This document shows, one piece after another, positions 32,219 through 43,666 of a stretch of DNA of 64,000 nt. A program made the translations under genes and the position numbers. The DNA lies in contig JAIXWI010000009.1 in NCBI GenBank assembly GCA_027491355.1, forward strand, positions 1-64,000, read 5' to 3'. This stretch comes from Bacteroidota bacterium (lineage in GTDB: Bacteria > Bacteroidota > Bacteroidia > UKL13-3). Every line of letters begins with the position of its first letter. The first letter of the stretch is position 1. The notes below the pieces were generated by a model, which saw only the letters and a program-made list of their open reading frames with translations, searched no databases and was not told where the DNA came from.

Positions 32219-33103
32219 TTATATTTTATTGCTCAGTTTTTTTAAAATCTCTTTCTCTGTTTCACTCAAGGCATGAATGCCATTGGCATTAATCTTGTCT
32301 AAAATCGTATCAATTTCTTTTTGATAATTTATCTGAGAATCCTCGAGTTTCATAAATTTTGATTTATAATGAATTTTGAGGTTTGACTTAGGTTTTCTCA
32401 ATTTCTTCAAAATCAAATCAAAGAGGTTTAAATTATAGAATAACTTCACATAGATTAAACCAAAAATTGCACCTCCCAAATGTGCTAAATGTCCACCAGT
32501 GTTGCTGTATGGAATGCTTACCAAGTCAAATAAAACTACAAAAAAAACAATCAATTTAAGTCGAACCCATCCCACAAAAAACAATTCAATTTCATAATTG
32601 GGTAATAGCGTGGCGGATGCTACAGCAATAGCCAAGACTCCCGCACTTGAGCCAGCCGCTAAGGATGTTGATGCTGATGGAATCAGATAAGGAAAAGTAT
32701 TGTATGACAACACAAACAACAATGCTCCTATGAAGCCACCCCCTATATATACACGCCACACCCTTTTATTGCCCAAATAAGTAATGAATAGCTGCCCAAT
32801 CCAATGTAACCACAACATATTAAACAAAAGGTGGATAAAACCTTCATGTATAAACATATAAGAGATCATTGTCCATGGTCTAAAAATCAATGATTGAAAA
32901 GACGCGGGAAGTAGAAAAAGATTGCGAAATACACCAACAGCATCTATGCCAGAAACAATTTCTATTAGTTCAATACATTTCCACAACAAAAATACCAACA
33001 CATTCAGTGCAACAATTTGCCAAATAGCGTTGTTTTTATATGTAGAAATGTGGTGTTGCAATTTGATAATTAGAAAAAATTTACTCGGTCTGTTTTGTTC
33101 CAA
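32219..33103 (-). CDS. Rhomboid-family intramembrane serine protease (variant GSSA motif)
   Basis: The 294-residue protein has about six membrane segments. The catalytic Ser sits in GSSAGVLA, where the usual GxSG reads GSSA, and the His in HLAHLGGAIFG; HEGFIHLLFNMLWL is the conserved H-x-x-x-H/N region of TM2. A cytoplasmic tail of about 70 residues, Lys-rich, follows the last TM. It overlaps the upstream rhomboid gene by 34 bases, so the two are translated from one message. Substrate unknown. Confidence 0.85.
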   Translation of the reverse strand: MEQNRPSKFFLIIKLQHHISTYKNNAIWQIVALNVLVFLLWKCIELIEIVSGIDAVGVFRNLFLLPASFQSLIFRPWTMISYMFIHEGFIHLLFNMLWLHWIGQLFITYLGNKRVWRVYIGGGFIGALLFVLSYNTFPYLIPSASTSLAAGSSAGVLAIAVASATLLPNYEIELFFVGWVRLKLIVFFVVLFDLVSIPYSNTGGHLAHLGGAIFGLIYVKLFYNLNLFDLILKKLRKPKSNLKIHYKSKFMKLEDSQINYQKEIDTILDKINANGIHALSETEKEILKKLSNKI

Positions 33104-33894
33104 TACTTTATTGCAAAAAAGCCAAATAACATGCCCCCTAAATGAGCAAAGTGAGCTACTTGGTCTCCAGGATTATTGCCCAAACCTTCCCATAATTCCA
33201 TGGCACCCAAAAACACAACCATGTATTTTATTTTAATTGGTATAGGTATAAAAAACAAAAAAACCTCCCTGTTTGGAAAAAGCATTCCGTTAGCAAGTAA
33301 CAAACCAAAAACAGCACCACTTGCCCCAACCATTGGAATGTTTAATTTTCGTTGAATCAAAACACCTGAAATTTCTCTTGCAAAATCAAGAAACTTGGGG
33401 TTTGAAATGTCTTGTGACCACTGATAAATAAAACTAGAAATTTGGTCTGTTGCTAACAAATCGGGGTCCGTTTTCATTAAATTCAAAAACTGGTCATATC
33501 CTGGTGCAGTATTGAATGCATCTATGGCCGATTGAATACTTTGAACCTCAAAATAGTTGATGGTTAAATAGGTTACTGCAGCACCTAAAGTAGTAATCAT
33601 ATAAAATGTTAGGAAGCGTTTTGGACCCCAAAAATGCTCTAAAATGGTTCCAAACATCCACAAAGAAAACATATTGTAAACCAAATGATTAATTGATGCA
33701 TGCATGAACGCATAACTTACCAATTGGAATGGCCTAAAATAACTTGATGCAGGATAATACAATCCCAAAACCTGGTTCAGGTTTACCCAGTTTCTATCTT
33801 GAAAAACAAAGGCAGCGAAAAAAAACAAACCATTTATGATGAGTAAGTTTTTAACGATGTTTGGGAGTGCAGAAAATGGAGATCCGGTTTGCAT
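33070..33894 (-). CDS. Rhomboid-family intramembrane serine protease
   Basis: This 274-residue rhomboid keeps the standard motifs: HASINHLVYNMFSLWMFG in TM2, GASGAVFGLLLANGML around the catalytic Ser in TM4, and AHFAHLGGMLFGF with the catalytic His in TM6. A loop of about 60 residues between TM3 and TM4 (about 118-180) is an insertion. It starts five bases after the mutL stop, on the same strand, and overlaps the second rhomboid. Tandem paralogues suggest different substrates or a heteromer. Confidence 0.9.
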   Translation of the reverse strand: MQTGSPFSALPNIVKNLLIINGLFFFAAFVFQDRNWVNLNQVLGLYYPASSYFRPFQLVSYAFMHASINHLVYNMFSLWMFGTILEHFWGPKRFLTFYMITTLGAAVTYLTINYFEVQSIQSAIDAFNTAPGYDQFLNLMKTDPDLLATDQISSFIYQWSQDISNPKFLDFAREISGVLIQRKLNIPMVGASGAVFGLLLANGMLFPNREVFLFFIPIPIKIKYMVVFLGAMELWEGLGNNPGDQVAHFAHLGGMLFGFFAIKYWNKTDRVNFF

Positions 33895-35852: not shown

Positions 35853-38789
35853 ATGATAAACTCGAAACACTTCTTAAAAGTAATTTTTTACGGATTGCTG
35901 TTTTTAATCTGGGGACGCACTCCCGCTAAAGCACAGAGCATTGATTGGAAAGCGCCGAATCATTGGGTAGATTCTATTCTTGCAGCCATGACTGAAGATG
36001 AAAAAATTACACAGTTAATGACAGTAGCTGTATGGACCCAAAGAGATGCCTCTCACGAAAAAGAAATAGAAAAATTAATTTTAGATTACAAAGTGGGTGG
36101 TTTAATGTTTATGAAGGGTGGTCCAATCAAACAAGCCAATCTTTGTAACCGTTTTCAATCAAAATCAAAGATACCCCTTCTTATCAGTATAGATGGTGAA
36201 TGGGGTTTAAACATGCGCTTAGACAGCACACCCGTCTTTCCAAGACAAATGGTTTTAGGTGCGGCCAATAACCTTGAACTCACCAAACAAATGGGACAAG
36301 AAATTGCCAAACATTGCAAGAGAATTGGAATTCAACTCAATTTTGCACCAGATGTTGACATCAATAACAATGCACTCAATCCTGTCATCAATGACCGAAG
36401 CTTTGGTGAAAATAAATATACTGTGGCTAAACATGGTTTGGCCTATGCAAGAGGCCTTCAGGAGCTTAGAATAATGCCTACCGCTAAACATTTTCCCGGC
36501 CATGGCGATACCGAAAGCGACTCTCACCACTCATTGCCAATGATCAATGCAAATACCAACCGGCTTGATTCACTAGAGTTGTATCCGTTTAAAGAGTTAA
36601 TCAATAACGGCGTATTGGGAGTAATGGTTGGCCACCTTTTTGTTCCCTCCATTGATACCACAAACAATACCGCTTCAAGCATTTCAGTTAAGGCGGTAAC
36701 AGAATTATTGAAAAACAAATTAGGATTTGAGGGGCTTGTTGTCTCAGATGGCCTTAACATGAAAGGTGTAGCTAATTATGCCGCGCCAGGAGAGGTTTGT
36801 GCCAAAGCTCTGGCTGCAGGTGTAGACTTATTGCTTTTTGTTGAAGATGTTCCACAATCGTTGTATTGGATCAAAGATTATATTAGTCGAGGCCTGATCA
36901 GCAAAGAGCGGCTAGATGAAGCTTGTCGTAAAATTTTAAAAACAAAATATTGGTGTGGATTAAACCGATATGAGCCCATTCAAACCAATCAACTTGTTGA
37001 AGACTTAAATTGTTGTTCAACAGATATGTTAATTAAAAAAATTGTTAAAAATGCTGTTGTTGTTGCAAAAAACGTAGATGGTCTTATTCCATTAGTTCAC
37101 CCAGAACTTGACAAGATAGCTGTTGTGTCGGTTGGTTATTCAGGCTTTTCAGTATTTCAACAGACCCTCAATAACTATTTACATGCAGATTATTTTAACA
37201 TAGATAAAAACGACTCTGTTACTGCTTTTAATGAGCTTAAAGCTAAATTGATGAGGTATAGCCTGGTAGTTTTAAGTCTTCAAAACACCAGTAGGTTTAT
37301 CAGTAAAAAGCTTGGCATTACACAACAAGAAATTGACTTCATCAACCAGGTAATGAATGAACAAAAATGCGTGTTGGTGGTTCACGGAAATCCCTATATC
37401 CTTAAACATTTTCAAGGAGCAAGGAACGTGATCTTGGCATTTGAAGATTTACCTGTATATAATTCCGTTTCAGCTCAAATTTTAGTAGGAGCAATAAGTG
37501 CTTCGGGTAAAATGCCGGTTTCTATTTTACCCGCTTTTGGGTTAAATGTTGGTACTAAAACACATTTAACAGAAAGAAATGAATTGGTTATGCCTGAAGA
37601 GATTGAAATTGACCATACGCCACTCCAACAAATAGATAGTTTAATTTCACAAGCAATCCGTGCTGGAGCCACACCTGGTTGTCAAATTTGGGCAAGTAAA
37701 AATGGTAAGGTTTTTTACCAAAAATCTTTTGGTCGGCATATATACGACACCCTATCACCTGAGGTTCAAAATCACCATTTATATGACATTGCCTCTCTAA
37801 CTAAAATCATGTCAACAACCCTGGCCATGATGAAACTATATGAAGATGGTAAAATTGGCTTGAATGATAAATTAAGCTTGTATTTGCCGTTTTTAAGGGG
37901 CTCTAACAAAGAAAATTTAACCATCAGAGAGGTGTTGTTGCACGAGGCTGGGTTAATTCCTTTTATCCCGTTTTATAAGCAAACAATTATTGATGGCCAA
38001 CTAGACACCAATGTATATCGTTTTAACAAACAAGCGGGCTTTGAAAAACAAGTGTGTGATGATCTTTTCATCAGAAACAATTATGAGGAAACGCTATTCG
38101 AAGCCATTGCTAAATCTGAACTCAAAACTCCCGGAAACTATGTATACAGCGACCTGGGTTTTATTTTACTGAGAAAACTGGTTGAAGTTGTTGCACATGA
38201 TGAATTTGAAAATTTCTTGCAAAGAAACTTTTACAAGCCGTTAAATTTAGCCAACATGGTATATAATCCTTTATCAAAAGGTTTAAATCCCGGTTGGATT
38301 GTACCAACTGAGAACGATCAATATTTTAGGGCACAACTTATCAATGGTTATGTTCATGACCCTGCCGCCGCTATGATGGGTGGAGTAAGTGGTCATGCAG
38401 GACTATTTGCAAACGCAAATGATGTTGGTGTGGTTATGCAGCTTTTATTAAACGGAGGAACATATGGTGGAAGACGTTTGTTAAAAGCCACTACCATTGA
38501 ACTTTTTACTAAAAAAAGTGGTAAAAAATCAAGAAGGGGATTGGGTTTTGACAAGCCCGAAACTACCAACGGTAAAAGCTCCCCTGCTGGAAATGGAGCA
38601 TCTGCCTTGTGTTTTGGTCATACTGGGTTTACTGGCACTTGTACGTGGGCTGACCCTAAAAATGAACTTGTGTTTGTGTTTTTATCTAACAGGGTTTATC
38701 CTACGGCTGAAAACAAAAGATTATCCGAACAAAACATCCGCACATCTATCCATGATATTTTAATTGAAGCGTGCAAAAAGAAGTTTTAG
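35853..38789 (+). CDS. Fusion: GH3 beta-N-acetylhexosaminidase plus class C beta-lactamase-like serine hydrolase
   Basis: The 978 residues have a signal peptide ending near AKAQ. The GH3 barrel (about 35-370) carries KHFPGHGDTESDSHHSLP (about 210), the NagZ-type His/Asp general-acid loop, and the nucleophile Asp in VVSDGLNMKG (about 299); a GH3 C-terminal Rossmann-like domain follows (to about 570). Residues about 590-975 form a beta-lactamase/penicillin-binding domain with SLTK (about 647), YSD (about 763) and HTG (about 922). Together they suit trimming of muropeptides: sugar cleavage and a peptidase or esterase action in the periplasm. The architecture is known in Bacteroidota; the serine-hydrolase substrate is inferred. 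Confidence 0.93.
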   Translation: MINSKHFLKVIFYGLLFLIWGRTPAKAQSIDWKAPNHWVDSILAAMTEDEKITQLMTVAVWTQRDASHEKEIEKLILDYKVGGLMFMKGGPIKQANLCNRFQSKSKIPLLISIDGEWGLNMRLDSTPVFPRQMVLGAANNLELTKQMGQEIAKHCKRIGIQLNFAPDVDINNNALNPVINDRSFGENKYTVAKHGLAYARGLQELRIMPTAKHFPGHGDTESDSHHSLPMINANTNRLDSLELYPFKELINNGVLGVMVGHLFVPSIDTTNNTASSISVKAVTELLKNKLGFEGLVVSDGLNMKGVANYAAPGEVCAKALAAGVDLLLFVEDVPQSLYWIKDYISRGLISKERLDEACRKILKTKYWCGLNRYEPIQTNQLVEDLNCCSTDMLIKKIVKNAVVVAKNVDGLIPLVHPELDKIAVVSVGYSGFSVFQQTLNNYLHADYFNIDKNDSVTAFNELKAKLMRYSLVVLSLQNTSRFISKKLGITQQEIDFINQVMNEQKCVLVVHGNPYILKHFQGARNVILAFEDLPVYNSVSAQILVGAISASGKMPVSILPAFGLNVGTKTHLTERNELVMPEEIEIDHTPLQQIDSLISQAIRAGATPGCQIWASKNGKVFYQKSFGRHIYDTLSPEVQNHHLYDIASLTKIMSTTLAMMKLYEDGKIGLNDKLSLYLPFLRGSNKENLTIREVLLHEAGLIPFIPFYKQTIIDGQLDTNVYRFNKQAGFEKQVCDDLFIRNNYEETLFEAIAKSELKTPGNYVYSDLGFILLRKLVEVVAHDEFENFLQRNFYKPLNLANMVYNPLSKGLNPGWIVPTENDQYFRAQLINGYVHDPAAAMMGGVSGHAGLFANANDVGVVMQLLLNGGTYGGRRLLKATTIELFTKKSGKKSRRGLGFDKPETTNGKSSPAGNGASALCFGHTGFTGTCTWADPKNELVFVFLSNRVYPTAENKRLSEQNIRTSIHDILIEACKKKF

Positions 38790-39179: not shown

Positions 39180-39205
39180 AAAACCCGCCTAGGCGGGTTT
39201 TTTTA
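39180..39205. terminator. Strong bidirectional Rho-independent terminator
   Basis: AAACCCGCC (39181-39189) pairs perfectly with GGCGGGTTT (39192-39200) around a two-base TA, followed by TTTT on the + strand and A-rich sequence on the other side. It ends the RRM gene and also the LysM gene on the minus strand, which stops at 39212. Confidence 0.9.
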
Positions 39206-39211
39206 TGCAAT

Positions 39212-40459
39212 TTAATCTCTCTTTCTCAACCTTTTCTTTTGTGCAGCAGACATGCTATTGATTCTTCTGTAATAACCCGTCTTATTGGCTTGAACATATA
39301 TTTTCAATACCGCTCCTCTTTTTACCTTACCCCTGGTTGTTTGCTTTTTATTCCAACCTTTAATGTCTTGTACAGATACATCAAACCAATCTGCAATGTC
39401 AGTTAAAACATCTCCCCTTTTTATAGTGTACCTTACAGGTTTTAGAGATTGAGCTGTTATTTTTTGCGTTCTTGAATCTTTTTTAGAATCTGTAACAATT
39501 GGATCGCCCTTTAATTCAGAAGAATCTTTTTCTATAGCAATTGGTTGAATTTCCAATGCGTGGTATTGTTTGTATACCGTATCCCTTAAAAGACTAAATT
39601 TAGCAACCTTATCAGAGGGAATTCTCAAAAAATAAGGTTCTTGAGAGAAGGGTATGATGTCTTTTTTAAAAATCGGGTTTAGGTCTCTTAATAATTCAAC
39701 CGGAACAGCTGTTGCGGTTGAAATTTGTTGAAAAGACAACCACTTTGAAATCCAAACAGTATCACTATTTGGAAGTTGTAGCGACTCTATGTATCGAATA
39801 CCATGCTCTTTGTAATAATTTAAAACGTAAACAGTTGCAATTACTTTTGGGTATAGGTCCCTGCAGCTAGCGGGCATCACTTTATAGATATCCCAAAAAT
39901 AAAAACTATTTCCTGCAGCATGTATTCCTTTGTTTAGTTGTACCGGTGAACATCCGTATGCGGCTATTGCCAGTGGCCAGCTCTTGTAAATTGCATACAA
40001 ATCTTTAAGGTTTTGGGCTGCAGCAAGGCTTGACTTAACTGGGTCTCTACGTTCGTCGATATATGTATTTTGTTTTAATTTATACATTTTGGCAACCGCA
40101 TACGACATCATCCAAACACCACTGTTACCATTTGGGTTCAATGCAGTAGGGTCTAAACCCGAAGCTGCAGCAGCAATGTATTTGAGGTCGGTTGGTAGGT
40201 TTTTTTGTCTGAGAGACTTTTCTATAGGAGGAAAATAAAACTTACTCCTGCTTATCAGTGACTTTATTAGCTCTGGATTGGCTAAATATTGTTCTATGTA
40301 TGTTCTTACTGAAGGATTATAGTTGACTTCAATAGTGGTTTTTAGTGCTGCTAATCTTGATTGATACAGTTCATCATTGTTTGCAATTGCATGAAGAGAT
40401 AACAATTCAAGAAACAGAAAAAAACCAAAAAAATATTTAATACGAATATTCAAATGCAT
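39212..40459 (-). CDS. LysM protein with degenerate MltD-like transglycosylase domain
   Basis: The 415 residues have a signal peptide (FFGFFLFLELLSLHAIAN), an SLT/MltD-like domain (about 65-210) and a C-terminal LysM (about 333-380: YTIKRGDVLTDIADWFDVSV), which binds peptidoglycan. The fold is clear (LPTDLKYIA, DERRDPVKSSLAAAQNLKDLY, WPLAIAAYGCSP, FWDIY), but the catalytic Glu normally found just before Ser in VESxxxP is Ala99 here (AAAASGLDP), and the active-site AYNxG block reads AYGCS; GLWQF reads GVWMM. The protein is thus probably a non-catalytic peptidoglycan-binding relative. It shares a terminator with the RRM gene and follows gatA on the same strand. Confidence 0.88.
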   Translation of the reverse strand: MHLNIRIKYFFGFFLFLELLSLHAIANNDELYQSRLAALKTTIEVNYNPSVRTYIEQYLANPELIKSLISRSKFYFPPIEKSLRQKNLPTDLKYIAAAASGLDPTALNPNGNSGVWMMSYAVAKMYKLKQNTYIDERRDPVKSSLAAAQNLKDLYAIYKSWPLAIAAYGCSPVQLNKGIHAAGNSFYFWDIYKVMPASCRDLYPKVIATVYVLNYYKEHGIRYIESLQLPNSDTVWISKWLSFQQISTATAVPVELLRDLNPIFKKDIIPFSQEPYFLRIPSDKVAKFSLLRDTVYKQYHALEIQPIAIEKDSSELKGDPIVTDSKKDSRTQKITAQSLKPVRYTIKRGDVLTDIADWFDVSVQDIKGWNKKQTTRGKVKRGAVLKIYVQANKTGYYRRINSMSAAQKKRLRKRD

Positions 40460-40534: not shown

Positions 40535-41962
40535 CTAAAATTGCACGGAAAGGCTCTCGGTAAATGCAAGCAAATCTGCATCTTTGCTTCTGCTTGCCAT
40601 CAATTGCATACCTATTGGCATACCCATTTCATCCGTACCAAAAGGAATTGAAATGGCTGGGTTTCCCGATATATTGGCGTGTACAGTAAATATATCTGCC
40701 AAATACATGGCTAGGGGGTTAGAGGCTTTTTCACCAATACCAAAAGCAACGGTTGGTGAGGTTGGCGATACAATAAAATCAACTTCTTCAAACAACGAAT
40801 CTGTATAATTTTTAACCAATCTTCTTACTTTTTGAGCCTTACTATAGTATGCATCATAATATCCTGATGACAACACAAAAGTACCGGTCATGATTCTTCT
40901 TTTCACTTCGGCACCAAAACCCTCTGATCTTGAAAATTTAACTGTAGTTTCTAGGTCTTTTGCTCGTTCACTTCTTCTACCATAATGCATTCCAGCAAAT
41001 CTGCTTAAGTTAGAGGATGCCTCGGCTGTAGTTAAAGTATAATAAACTGGAACCAGTACATCTAAGTAGGGAAAACTAACTTGTTTCACTTCATGTCCAA
41101 GTTCTTTTAACTTTTCTATGAAAGCAATTGTTTGTTGCTTAACCGCTGGTGCTATACCCTCAGAATCAATTGCTTCTTTGAAATAAGCAATTTTCATCTT
41201 CTTAGTCATTTTTTCTGGTGATTTGGGCAATAACACTTTTGTATTCAGAGCTGTAGCATCATGCCCATCAGGACCTGATATTACCTCCATTATACTTGAA
41301 GTATCGCCTACTGATTGAGTAATTGGACCAATGATGTCAAATGATGAAGCATAGGCAATCAAACCCCATCTAGAGATTGCGCCATAAGTAGGTTTATAAC
41401 CAACCAGGCCACAAAAAGAAGCAGGTTGTCTGACCGAACCACCTGTGTCGCTTCCCAGGGCGGCCAAACACATATTTGCTTGAACAGAAACAGCAGCACC
41501 CCCTGAAGAACCTCCAGACACTTTCGATGGATTAATTGCATTTAAAACCGGTCCATAAACAGAAGTTTCATTTGAAGCCCCCATTGCAAACTCATCGCAA
41601 TTACTTCTGCCAATAATGATGGCATCTTCCGCTAAAATACGCTCAACAGCTGTTGCGGAAAATAACGACTCAAACCCCTTTAAAATTGCTGAAGATGCGC
41701 TTGATTGATGCCCTTTGTAACAGATGTTGTCTTTGATTGAAACAACCATACCTGCAAGTTTACCTGCTTGGCCATTGTTGAGTTTTGTTTGAATTTTGTC
41801 TGCTGCTGCTAATGCCTCTTCACCATACACCTCTACAAGTGCATTTAGTTGTGGATTGTGGATTTCGATGTTTTTCAAATACATCGCAACTAAGCCCGGT
41901 AGGGTTATCAATCCAGCAGTCAAATCTGCCTGTATAGCCTTTAAGGAATTGTATTGGTTCAA
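40535..41962 (-). CDS. gatA: Asp-tRNA(Asn)/Glu-tRNA(Gln) amidotransferase subunit A
   Basis: The 475-residue amidase of the GatCAB complex releases ammonia from glutamine for transamidation of misacylated tRNAs. The amidase-signature triad is visible: Lys in VVSIKDNI, Ser in SGGSSGGAA and Ser in GSDTGGSVRQPASFCG. Length is normal. gatB and gatC are not adjacent. It starts 23 bases after tatA on the same strand and probably shares its promoter. Confidence 0.95.
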   Translation of the reverse strand: MNQYNSLKAIQADLTAGLITLPGLVAMYLKNIEIHNPQLNALVEVYGEEALAAADKIQTKLNNGQAGKLAGMVVSIKDNICYKGHQSSASSAILKGFESLFSATAVERILAEDAIIIGRSNCDEFAMGASNETSVYGPVLNAINPSKVSGGSSGGAAVSVQANMCLAALGSDTGGSVRQPASFCGLVGYKPTYGAISRWGLIAYASSFDIIGPITQSVGDTSSIMEVISGPDGHDATALNTKVLLPKSPEKMTKKMKIAYFKEAIDSEGIAPAVKQQTIAFIEKLKELGHEVKQVSFPYLDVLVPVYYTLTTAEASSNLSRFAGMHYGRRSERAKDLETTVKFSRSEGFGAEVKRRIMTGTFVLSSGYYDAYYSKAQKVRRLVKNYTDSLFEEVDFIVSPTSPTVAFGIGEKASNPLAMYLADIFTVHANISGNPAISIPFGTDEMGMPIGMQLMASRSKDADLLAFTESLSVQF

Positions 41963-42259: not shown

Positions 42260-43666
42260 TTATTTCATTTTTAGAAGACGTTTCAAGGACTTCACCTCTT
42301 TTTCTGTCAAGTGTCTCCACTCTCCGCGTTTTAACTTGCCCTTTTCAAGATCGGCATACAATACCCGATCTAACTTATCAACTTTGTATTCCAAGTGCTC
42401 GAACATTCTATGAATGATTCTGTTCTTACCACTATGAATTTCAACACCTACCACTTTTTTGTCTTTGGGGTCAGACATGGCTATGGCATCTGGTTTTATA
42501 GGCCCATCTTCTAAAACAACACCGTTCGACAGCGTCCACATATCTGTTGGCTTGAATGGTTTGTCAAGTGTAGCACGGTAAACCTTGAAAACCTCGTATT
42601 TAGGGTGCATCAATCGTTGGGCAAGTTCGCCATCATTTGTAAGCAATAAAACGCCGGTAGTATTTCTATCTAAACGCCCAACCGGAAAAATGCGTTCTTT
42701 CATTTTTCCATCAAATAATTCCATTACGGTGTTTCTGCCCTCTGGATCATCAAAGGTGGTAATGGTATCTTTTGGTTTATTTAGCAAAACATAAACACGC
42801 TCTTCAACCGATAATTTAGAACCATTAAATTTAACTACATCTCCTTGATTTACTTTTGTTCCTAGTGTTGTGATAATTTTATCATTTACGCTTACCAAAC
42901 CAGCATTAATCAATTCATCAGCCTCTCTTCTACTGCATATTCCTGCATTTGATATGTACCTATTCAAGCGAATACCCGAACCACTGTCTAAATCAGATTC
43001 GGCTGTGTTTTTCTTTTGTTTACTTGGCTTTTCATCTGTTTTTGATGAAGCAATTCTACTGAACTTATTGAATGGCTTTGTTCTTTCTGGTTTTGCACCA
43101 TATTCGCCGCTTTCTGAACCCTTGGTGTATTGTTTACGGGCCTTATTGGTACCAGGGTTTGTTCTGGTAAATTTCTTAGAAACATCAAACCCTCCGTCGG
43201 TTTCTGATCCAGGTCTTGCTCTTTCTGGTTTTGTAACATATCCACCCTTTTCAGAATTGCGAGTATTTCGCTTATATCTGCTTGTATTGGTATCTGTTTT
43301 ATGGTATCTGTTATTGCTATCAAACCCATTCTCTTTGTCTTGAATTGGCCTTCTTCTTTTGTCAAACATGGGTTTTTCACCCATATCTGTTGGTTTTGCA
43401 GCATATCTAGAAGAAGCTTTATTCAAATTTGATGTAGTTCTGTTGGTTTTTTTCTTAGAAAAATCAACATCTTTCCCTTTGCTTCCAGGCTTAGCAAATC
43501 TGTAATCAACGGGCTTGTCATCCGTTTTCTTACTCCAACCCTTCATTTCAGATTTTTTTGTAAAGCCCTTTCTGGGCTTAGCGCTTCTTCCCTTTTTGGC
43601 AAATGCGGGCTTTTCGCCCGATTTATTGACTGTTCTACTTCCAGAACCTTTTGCTTCTCTTTTCAT
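42260..43666 (-). CDS. rluB: RluB-type 23S rRNA pseudouridine synthase with a long basic N-terminal extension
   Basis: Of the 468 residues, about 230-290 form an S4 RNA-binding domain (IRLNRYISNAGICSRREADE) and 295-460 a RsuA-family synthase with catalytic Asp in PVGRLDRNTTGVLLLTNDG. The enzyme makes pseudouridine in 23S rRNA. The first 225 residues are a disordered tail rich in Lys, Arg, Gly, Ser, with loose repeats built on KPERxxP (YVTKPERARP, YGAKPERTKP) and GG.F or GFD. Such basic tails are frequent in Bacteroidota rRNA enzymes and may help bind rRNA. It has its own -7 box. Confidence 0.9.
   Translation of the reverse strand: MKREAKGSGSRTVNKSGEKPAFAKKGRSAKPRKGFTKKSEMKGWSKKTDDKPVDYRFAKPGSKGKDVDFSKKKTNRTTSNLNKASSRYAAKPTDMGEKPMFDKRRRPIQDKENGFDSNNRYHKTDTNTSRYKRNTRNSEKGGYVTKPERARPGSETDGGFDVSKKFTRTNPGTNKARKQYTKGSESGEYGAKPERTKPFNKFSRIASSKTDEKPSKQKKNTAESDLDSGSGIRLNRYISNAGICSRREADELINAGLVSVNDKIITTLGTKVNQGDVVKFNGSKLSVEERVYVLLNKPKDTITTFDDPEGRNTVMELFDGKMKERIFPVGRLDRNTTGVLLLTNDGELAQRLMHPKYEVFKVYRATLDKPFKPTDMWTLSNGVVLEDGPIKPDAIAMSDPKDKKVVGVEIHSGKNRIIHRMFEHLEYKVDKLDRVLYADLEKGKLKRGEWRHLTEKEVKSLKRLLKMK

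Follow-up and report, generated by a model that had tools for sequence, protein, structure and literature searches.

Catalytically dead MltD-type proteins of Bacteroidota and their possible ancestral tie to envelope O-acylation

Introduction

What might a lytic transglycosylase (LT) do for a cell once its catalytic glutamate is gone? The question is raised by a gene in the window, the stretch of 64,000 nucleotides of Bacteroidota DNA analysed here, whose product combines an SLT domain with a LysM domain and carries alanine where the enzyme MltD has its glutamate. Dead regulators of wall hydrolases are already known on the LytM fold, EnvC and NlpD being degenerate LytM regulators, and a conserved pseudoenzyme family on the LT fold may be new. 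Open-licence papers, in which absence counts for little, describe no conserved family of dead proteins with the transglycosylase fold, and they likewise yielded no account of a dead MltD/LysM family associated with MBOAT/SGNH proteins or O-acetylation in Bacteroidetes.

The gene and its domains

The pseudo-MltD reading frame runs unbroken from ATG to TAA on the minus strand and encodes 415 residues (Table 1). An AlphaFold model of the protein (pLDDT 81.5, pTM 0.63) adopts the MltD fold, and its best match in the PDB is chain 8rhe_B (Z 24.3 over 250 residues, rmsd 3.3). Together with the Pfam matches to SLT and LysM, this agrees with a preliminary description of the locus, made from the DNA letters alone, which held that the fold and the LysM domain are kept. 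Domain order, fold and LysM are thus those of MltD as solved for Pseudomonas aeruginosa (8RHE/8RHF/8RHI), but the catalytic glutamate is missing and motifs II and III are altered. The protein scores 110 bits against the NCBIfam MltD model, whose cut-off is 508. A strand-helix-helix-strand unit in the predicted structure possibly represents a first LysM that has degenerated. The model also shows a helical C-terminal tail, whose motif was considered as a hallmark of dead copies and rejected, since a similar motif lies between the LysM domains of some active copies.

Table 1. Features of the pseudo-MltD locus, in positions of the window
Feature	Position	Strand	Basis or remark
Pseudo-MltD gene (415 aa), SLT fold lacking the catalytic Glu, with LysM	39212..40459	-	
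Signal-peptide-like hydrophobic N-terminus, residues 1-26	40382..40459	-	Predicted from sequence; no lipobox Cys seen
SLT domain PF01464, residues 79-183	39911..40225	-	Pfam 1.2e-14
Codon 99, GCT = Ala, catalytic-Glu position	40163..40165	-	
Motif II GVWMM, residues 114-118, against G-L/M-WQF	40106..40120	-	
Motif III AYGCSP, residues 167-172, against AYNCGP	39944..39961	-	
Possible degenerate first LysM, residues 232-281	39617..39766	-	Predicted from strand-helix-helix-strand in the model; no Pfam match
LysM domain PF01476, residues 344-387	39299..39430	-	Pfam 3.2e-7
Helical C-terminal tail, residues 391-415, ending QKKRLRKRD	39215..39289	-	Kept across the order's dead clade
gatA-type amidase PF01425, directly upstream, 75 nt gap	40535..41962	-	Conserved neighbour
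Intrinsic-terminator-like hairpin 3' of the pseudo-MltD gene	39180..39201	-	2 such sites in the region against a shuffle mean of 2.2

Loss of the catalytic site

Ala99 aligns with the catalytic glutamate of P. aeruginosa MltD (8rhe), the nearest solved relative by sequence, and both SLT paralogues encoded in the same genome (L001 and L002) have glutamate opposite it. Across the homologues, glutamate fills the site in 105/105 active rows and in 0/59 dead rows of the window's family (f1), the two groups being defined by that residue. The neighbouring motifs part along the same groups. Gln117 is present in 105/105 active rows and is not one of the five most frequent states at this position in the 59 dead f1 rows; Gly171 is found in 105/105 and 0/59 rows, respectively, and Phe118 in 102/105 and 0/59. 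With Met117, Gly169 and Ser171, the window protein lacks the glutamine of motif II and the asparagine and glycine of motif III, which reads AYGCSPV against AYNCGPG in MltD. The preliminary description had named the replacement of the catalytic glutamate by Ala99 and the deviation of GVWMM and AYGCSP from the MltD blocks, and these alignments bear out both. It had named as a refutation an alignment placing another glutamate in the catalytic position; no other glutamate aligns there. A glutamate at residue 101 of some relatives was considered as a replacement and rejected, being two residues downstream and not conserved. A base-call error is ruled out because GCT is two substitutions away from either glutamate codon and because two relatives of the same genus, independently assembled (L005 and L006), also have alanine.

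Conservation and selection in the order

The window's order was sampled through 64 genomes of 14 genera, all in the single family f1. A search with the window protein finds homologues in 64/64 of them, and 58/64 hold a full-length copy without glutamate; not one of those 58 has glutamate at the site. The residue there is Ala in 18 genomes, Leu in 15, Val in 10, Ser in 10 and Ile in 5, with G032 entered as Ile once a false positive had been taken out. The six genomes that lack a full copy (G028, G030, G059, G067, G070 and G079) are 65-88% complete; in G079 just a piece of the tail is present, at the end of a contig, and it was left out of the full-length count. The conservation of Ala99 in relatives, which the preliminary description had proposed as a check, therefore has two sides: the site is never glutamate, but its residue varies (A, S, V, I or L within the order, with C, N, T, Y, F or W added beyond it).

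The dead MltD-type protein is under purifying selection. Pairs of dead f1 copies with dS below 1 give dN/dS of about 0.02-0.09, the restriction being made because dS is saturated in many pairs, and two comparable active pairs (dS below 1) give similar values of 0.017 and 0.076. The domains are retained as well: in an alignment of 28 members (A1), all 28 match SLT and 26/28 match LysM (PF01476). The preliminary claim of protein-level selection thus stands on dN/dS, while the ground originally offered for it, the absence of a frameshift, is weak. Its proposal that the protein is a pseudoenzyme is well supported by a loss that is kept across the order and beyond, together with the purifying selection.

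A wider family and its tree

The family extends outside the order. A class-wide search over 395 genomes, followed by searches of the orders around two of its matches, returned homologues lacking the glutamate in f53, f60 and f33, and loci collected around SGNH genes add others in f5, f9, f12, f14, f23, f30 and f52. Altogether 230 distinct LT sequences of at least 300 aa were gathered, 105 with the glutamate and 125 without. Two SGNH2 proteins with LysM stretches (L328 and L345) also matched the LT profile and were excluded from the dead-LT counts after inspection.

In a tree of 67 LTs computed with the active-site columns removed, one branch parts 35 dead from 32 active sequences (UFBoot 100, SH-aLRT 99); this tree is unrooted, with many weak deep forks inside each side, and omits 28 of 95 rows, of which 19 were distant or on long branches and 9 were thinned out. 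The full 95-row tree likewise has one dead/active split (SH-aLRT 99); it came from a quick search in which long branches were flagged as meeting. As far as is known, the catalytic glutamate is universal among characterised LTs, and with one branch dividing dead from active sequences, a single loss is the simplest account. The window protein belongs to a large, old clade of dead MltD-type proteins and is not a one-off.

Neighbouring genes in relatives

A gatA gene lies directly upstream on the same strand, at less than 400 nt, in 48/58 f1, 12/18 f53 and 3/12 f60 genomes. Sharing of this neighbour across orders suggests that the locus is the same and the genes are orthologous. A functional linkage to gatA was rejected; the gene is more probably a housekeeping one that anchors the locus.

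Downstream, where the flank is long enough, the dead copy is followed directly by an SGNH/GDSL protein (SGNH1) in 17/17 f53 and 20/20 f33 genomes, and all these loci were located with the dead protein or its profile as query. The same gene follows the active copy in 0/15 f33 genomes, and 0/12 dead copies of f60 are SGNH-linked. Seven of eight f33 loci continue into a run of dead LT, SGNH, second SGNH and MBOAT, and in five of those seven runs a HAD-like gene (identified by eye) is interposed. A run of SGNH, in part a second SGNH, and MBOAT led by a dead LT recurs in f5, f9, f12, f14, f23, f30 (here without the second SGNH) and f52, at one or two loci per family. These loci were found through SGNH and so are biased to linkage and allow no rate to be derived. 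The run is known from eight families in all.

The SGNH and MBOAT identities in these loci are backed by Pfam. All 15 MBOATs linked to a dead LT have the C-terminal end FIYFQF, and FXYXXF is described as the acyl-shuttle motif of PatA and related enzymes (PMC12148441). The SGNH1 examples inspected have the expected GDS and DxxH blocks, and simple GDS/DxxH patterns are matched by 55/72 SGNH1-profile matches, a set that includes paralogues.

The association is not obligatory. Many other SGNH operons contain no LT at all, and the LT linked to SGNH in f62 and f11 retains its glutamate, so the system can do without a dead LT. One f11 locus has a 948-aa GDSL-MBOAT fusion (L320:1657-4500) adjoining the glutamate-retaining LT. 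In related operons, two SGNH2 proteins (L328:6746-8554 and L345:4476-6221) carry two C-terminal LysM stretches each, and the presence of LysM on some SGNH2 proteins hints, at the level of domain content, at peptidoglycan as the acyl acceptor.

Three f60 loci (L276, L277 and L279) have, after the dead LT, an outer-membrane-like protein of up to 750 aa in the place of the SGNH gene, split in L279.

The window's own genome

No SGNH1 or SGNH2 match appears in the window's genome (G000) in a profile search that matches 29/64 genomes of the order. The full-length, LT-linked form of SGNH1 occurs in the order only in genus g13 (3/56 genomes). A single MBOAT is encoded in G000, unlinked to the dead LT and ending in FIYFQF. 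Next to it lies a gene for a protein of 324 aa that has a GDS motif but matches nothing in Pfam, and the two (L356:1240-3613, contig C23) possibly form an unrelated acyltransferase pair. Five other genomes have the dead gene and no MBOAT match (G011, G022, G013, G027 and G065), so that acylation cannot be its sole role there. Taken with the absence of the partner from the window's genome, these MBOAT-less relatives suggest that the role of the dead protein outlives its acylation partner, or that it has another partner.

Proposed function and alternatives

As a member of an old dead MltD-type family, the window protein somewhat more probably than not works as a non-catalytic, peptidoglycan-binding adaptor with an ancestral tie to envelope O-acylation. 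The protein would be exported to the periplasm, where its LysM domain or domains and the inactive SLT groove would hold glycan strands; a dead LT of this kind would serve as an adaptor that does not cut. Ancestrally, it may have presented or anchored peptidoglycan so that an MBOAT-SGNH O-acyltransferase could act on it. The window's lineage, which no longer has the SGNH partner, would retain the protein as an adaptor in some other envelope process. That a protein with the LT fold could be an adaptor for SGNH enzymes is made plausible by LtgA of Neisseria, an LT reported to bind and stimulate the SGNH peptidoglycan esterase Ape1 (PMC7083599). The suggestion of the preliminary description that the protein may guide other envelope machines draws indirect support from the linkage of its relatives to an SGNH-MBOAT operon of acyltransferase type, a partner missing from the window's genome. 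A fuller history can be put forward only tentatively, with the chances leaning against it: after one ancient loss of catalysis, an MltD in Bacteroidota would have become the dedicated, non-cutting subunit that presents glycan within a cell-wall O-acyltransferase of the MBOAT-SGNH type, and this subunit would later have outlasted its first partner in several lineages, including that of the window. As a counterpoint to the adaptor reading, the altered motifs II and III could imply that glycan binding has been lost too.

The dead protein might instead have nothing to do with O-acylation and regulate active hydrolases of its own genome, such as the MltD paralogue L001, by binding or activating them as degenerate LytM factors do. 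Active paralogues are indeed present in the same genome, several genomes of the order have kept the dead gene in the absence of SGNH or MBOAT, and DipM, a dead hydrolase fold reported to regulate several autolysins (PMC10336132), provides a precedent. Yet no linkage of the dead gene to an active LT was seen, and its constant neighbour in f33 and f53 is SGNH1 rather than a hydrolase of wall glycan or peptide; such a regulator is an unlikely explanation, though one with a serious claim.

The strong constraint on the protein (dN/dS), two conserved acidic residues (Asp135 and Glu136) and a cysteine at the site in many f33 and f23 members could be taken to mean that the SLT fold has gained a new catalytic activity through other residues. 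This is improbable: Asp135 and Glu136 are about equally conserved in active copies and so do not mark a new site, the site residue varies widely both within f1 and elsewhere, and no new invariant polar residue appears at it. Weak residual cleavage of peptidoglycan, assisted by the substrate and independent of glutamate, would fit the retained fold and the retained groove residues Tyr168, Trp116 and Arg137. But the window's clade has lost the motif II glutamine, the motif III asparagine and Gly171/Gly173 along with the glutamate, and mutation of the catalytic glutamate inactivates characterised LTs, leaving residual cleavage very improbable. A decaying gene or an assembly artefact, for which nothing speaks beyond the lost site itself, can be dismissed, as the frames are unbroken in 58 genomes, independent assemblies agree and dN/dS lies far below 1.

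Relation to known systems

The adaptor reading sets the family beside several described systems. The loci of the relatives share an FXYXXF MBOAT and two SGNH proteins with the PatA/PatB/Ape1 O-acetylation operon as described in PMC12148441. They differ from it in that an LT-fold protein leads the operon and in that peptidoglycan is a putative acceptor; the window's copy lies outside any such operon. In the LtgA-Ape1 pair, by contrast, the LT is catalytically competent, and the available text of PMC7083599 mentions no comparable conserved operon link. Degenerate LytM regulators such as DipM likewise keep an inactive hydrolase fold, a metallopeptidase in their case and a transglycosylase here.

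Annotation would tend to label the dead proteins as transglycosylases, so that the number of LTs credited to Bacteroidota genomes may be too high. The linkage to SGNH and MBOAT genes, for its part, offers a direct hypothesis for how wall O-acylation could be targeted in Bacteroidota.

Other genes of the window

Three further loci of the window stood out by eye. A 978-aa reading frame (35853-38789, plus strand) reads as a fusion of a GH3 glycosidase with a serine beta-lactamase-like domain. On the minus strand, an RluB-like pseudouridine synthase (42260-43666) bears a long, basic, low-complexity N-terminal extension, and two adjoining rhomboid-like reading frames form a tandem pair (32219-33894).
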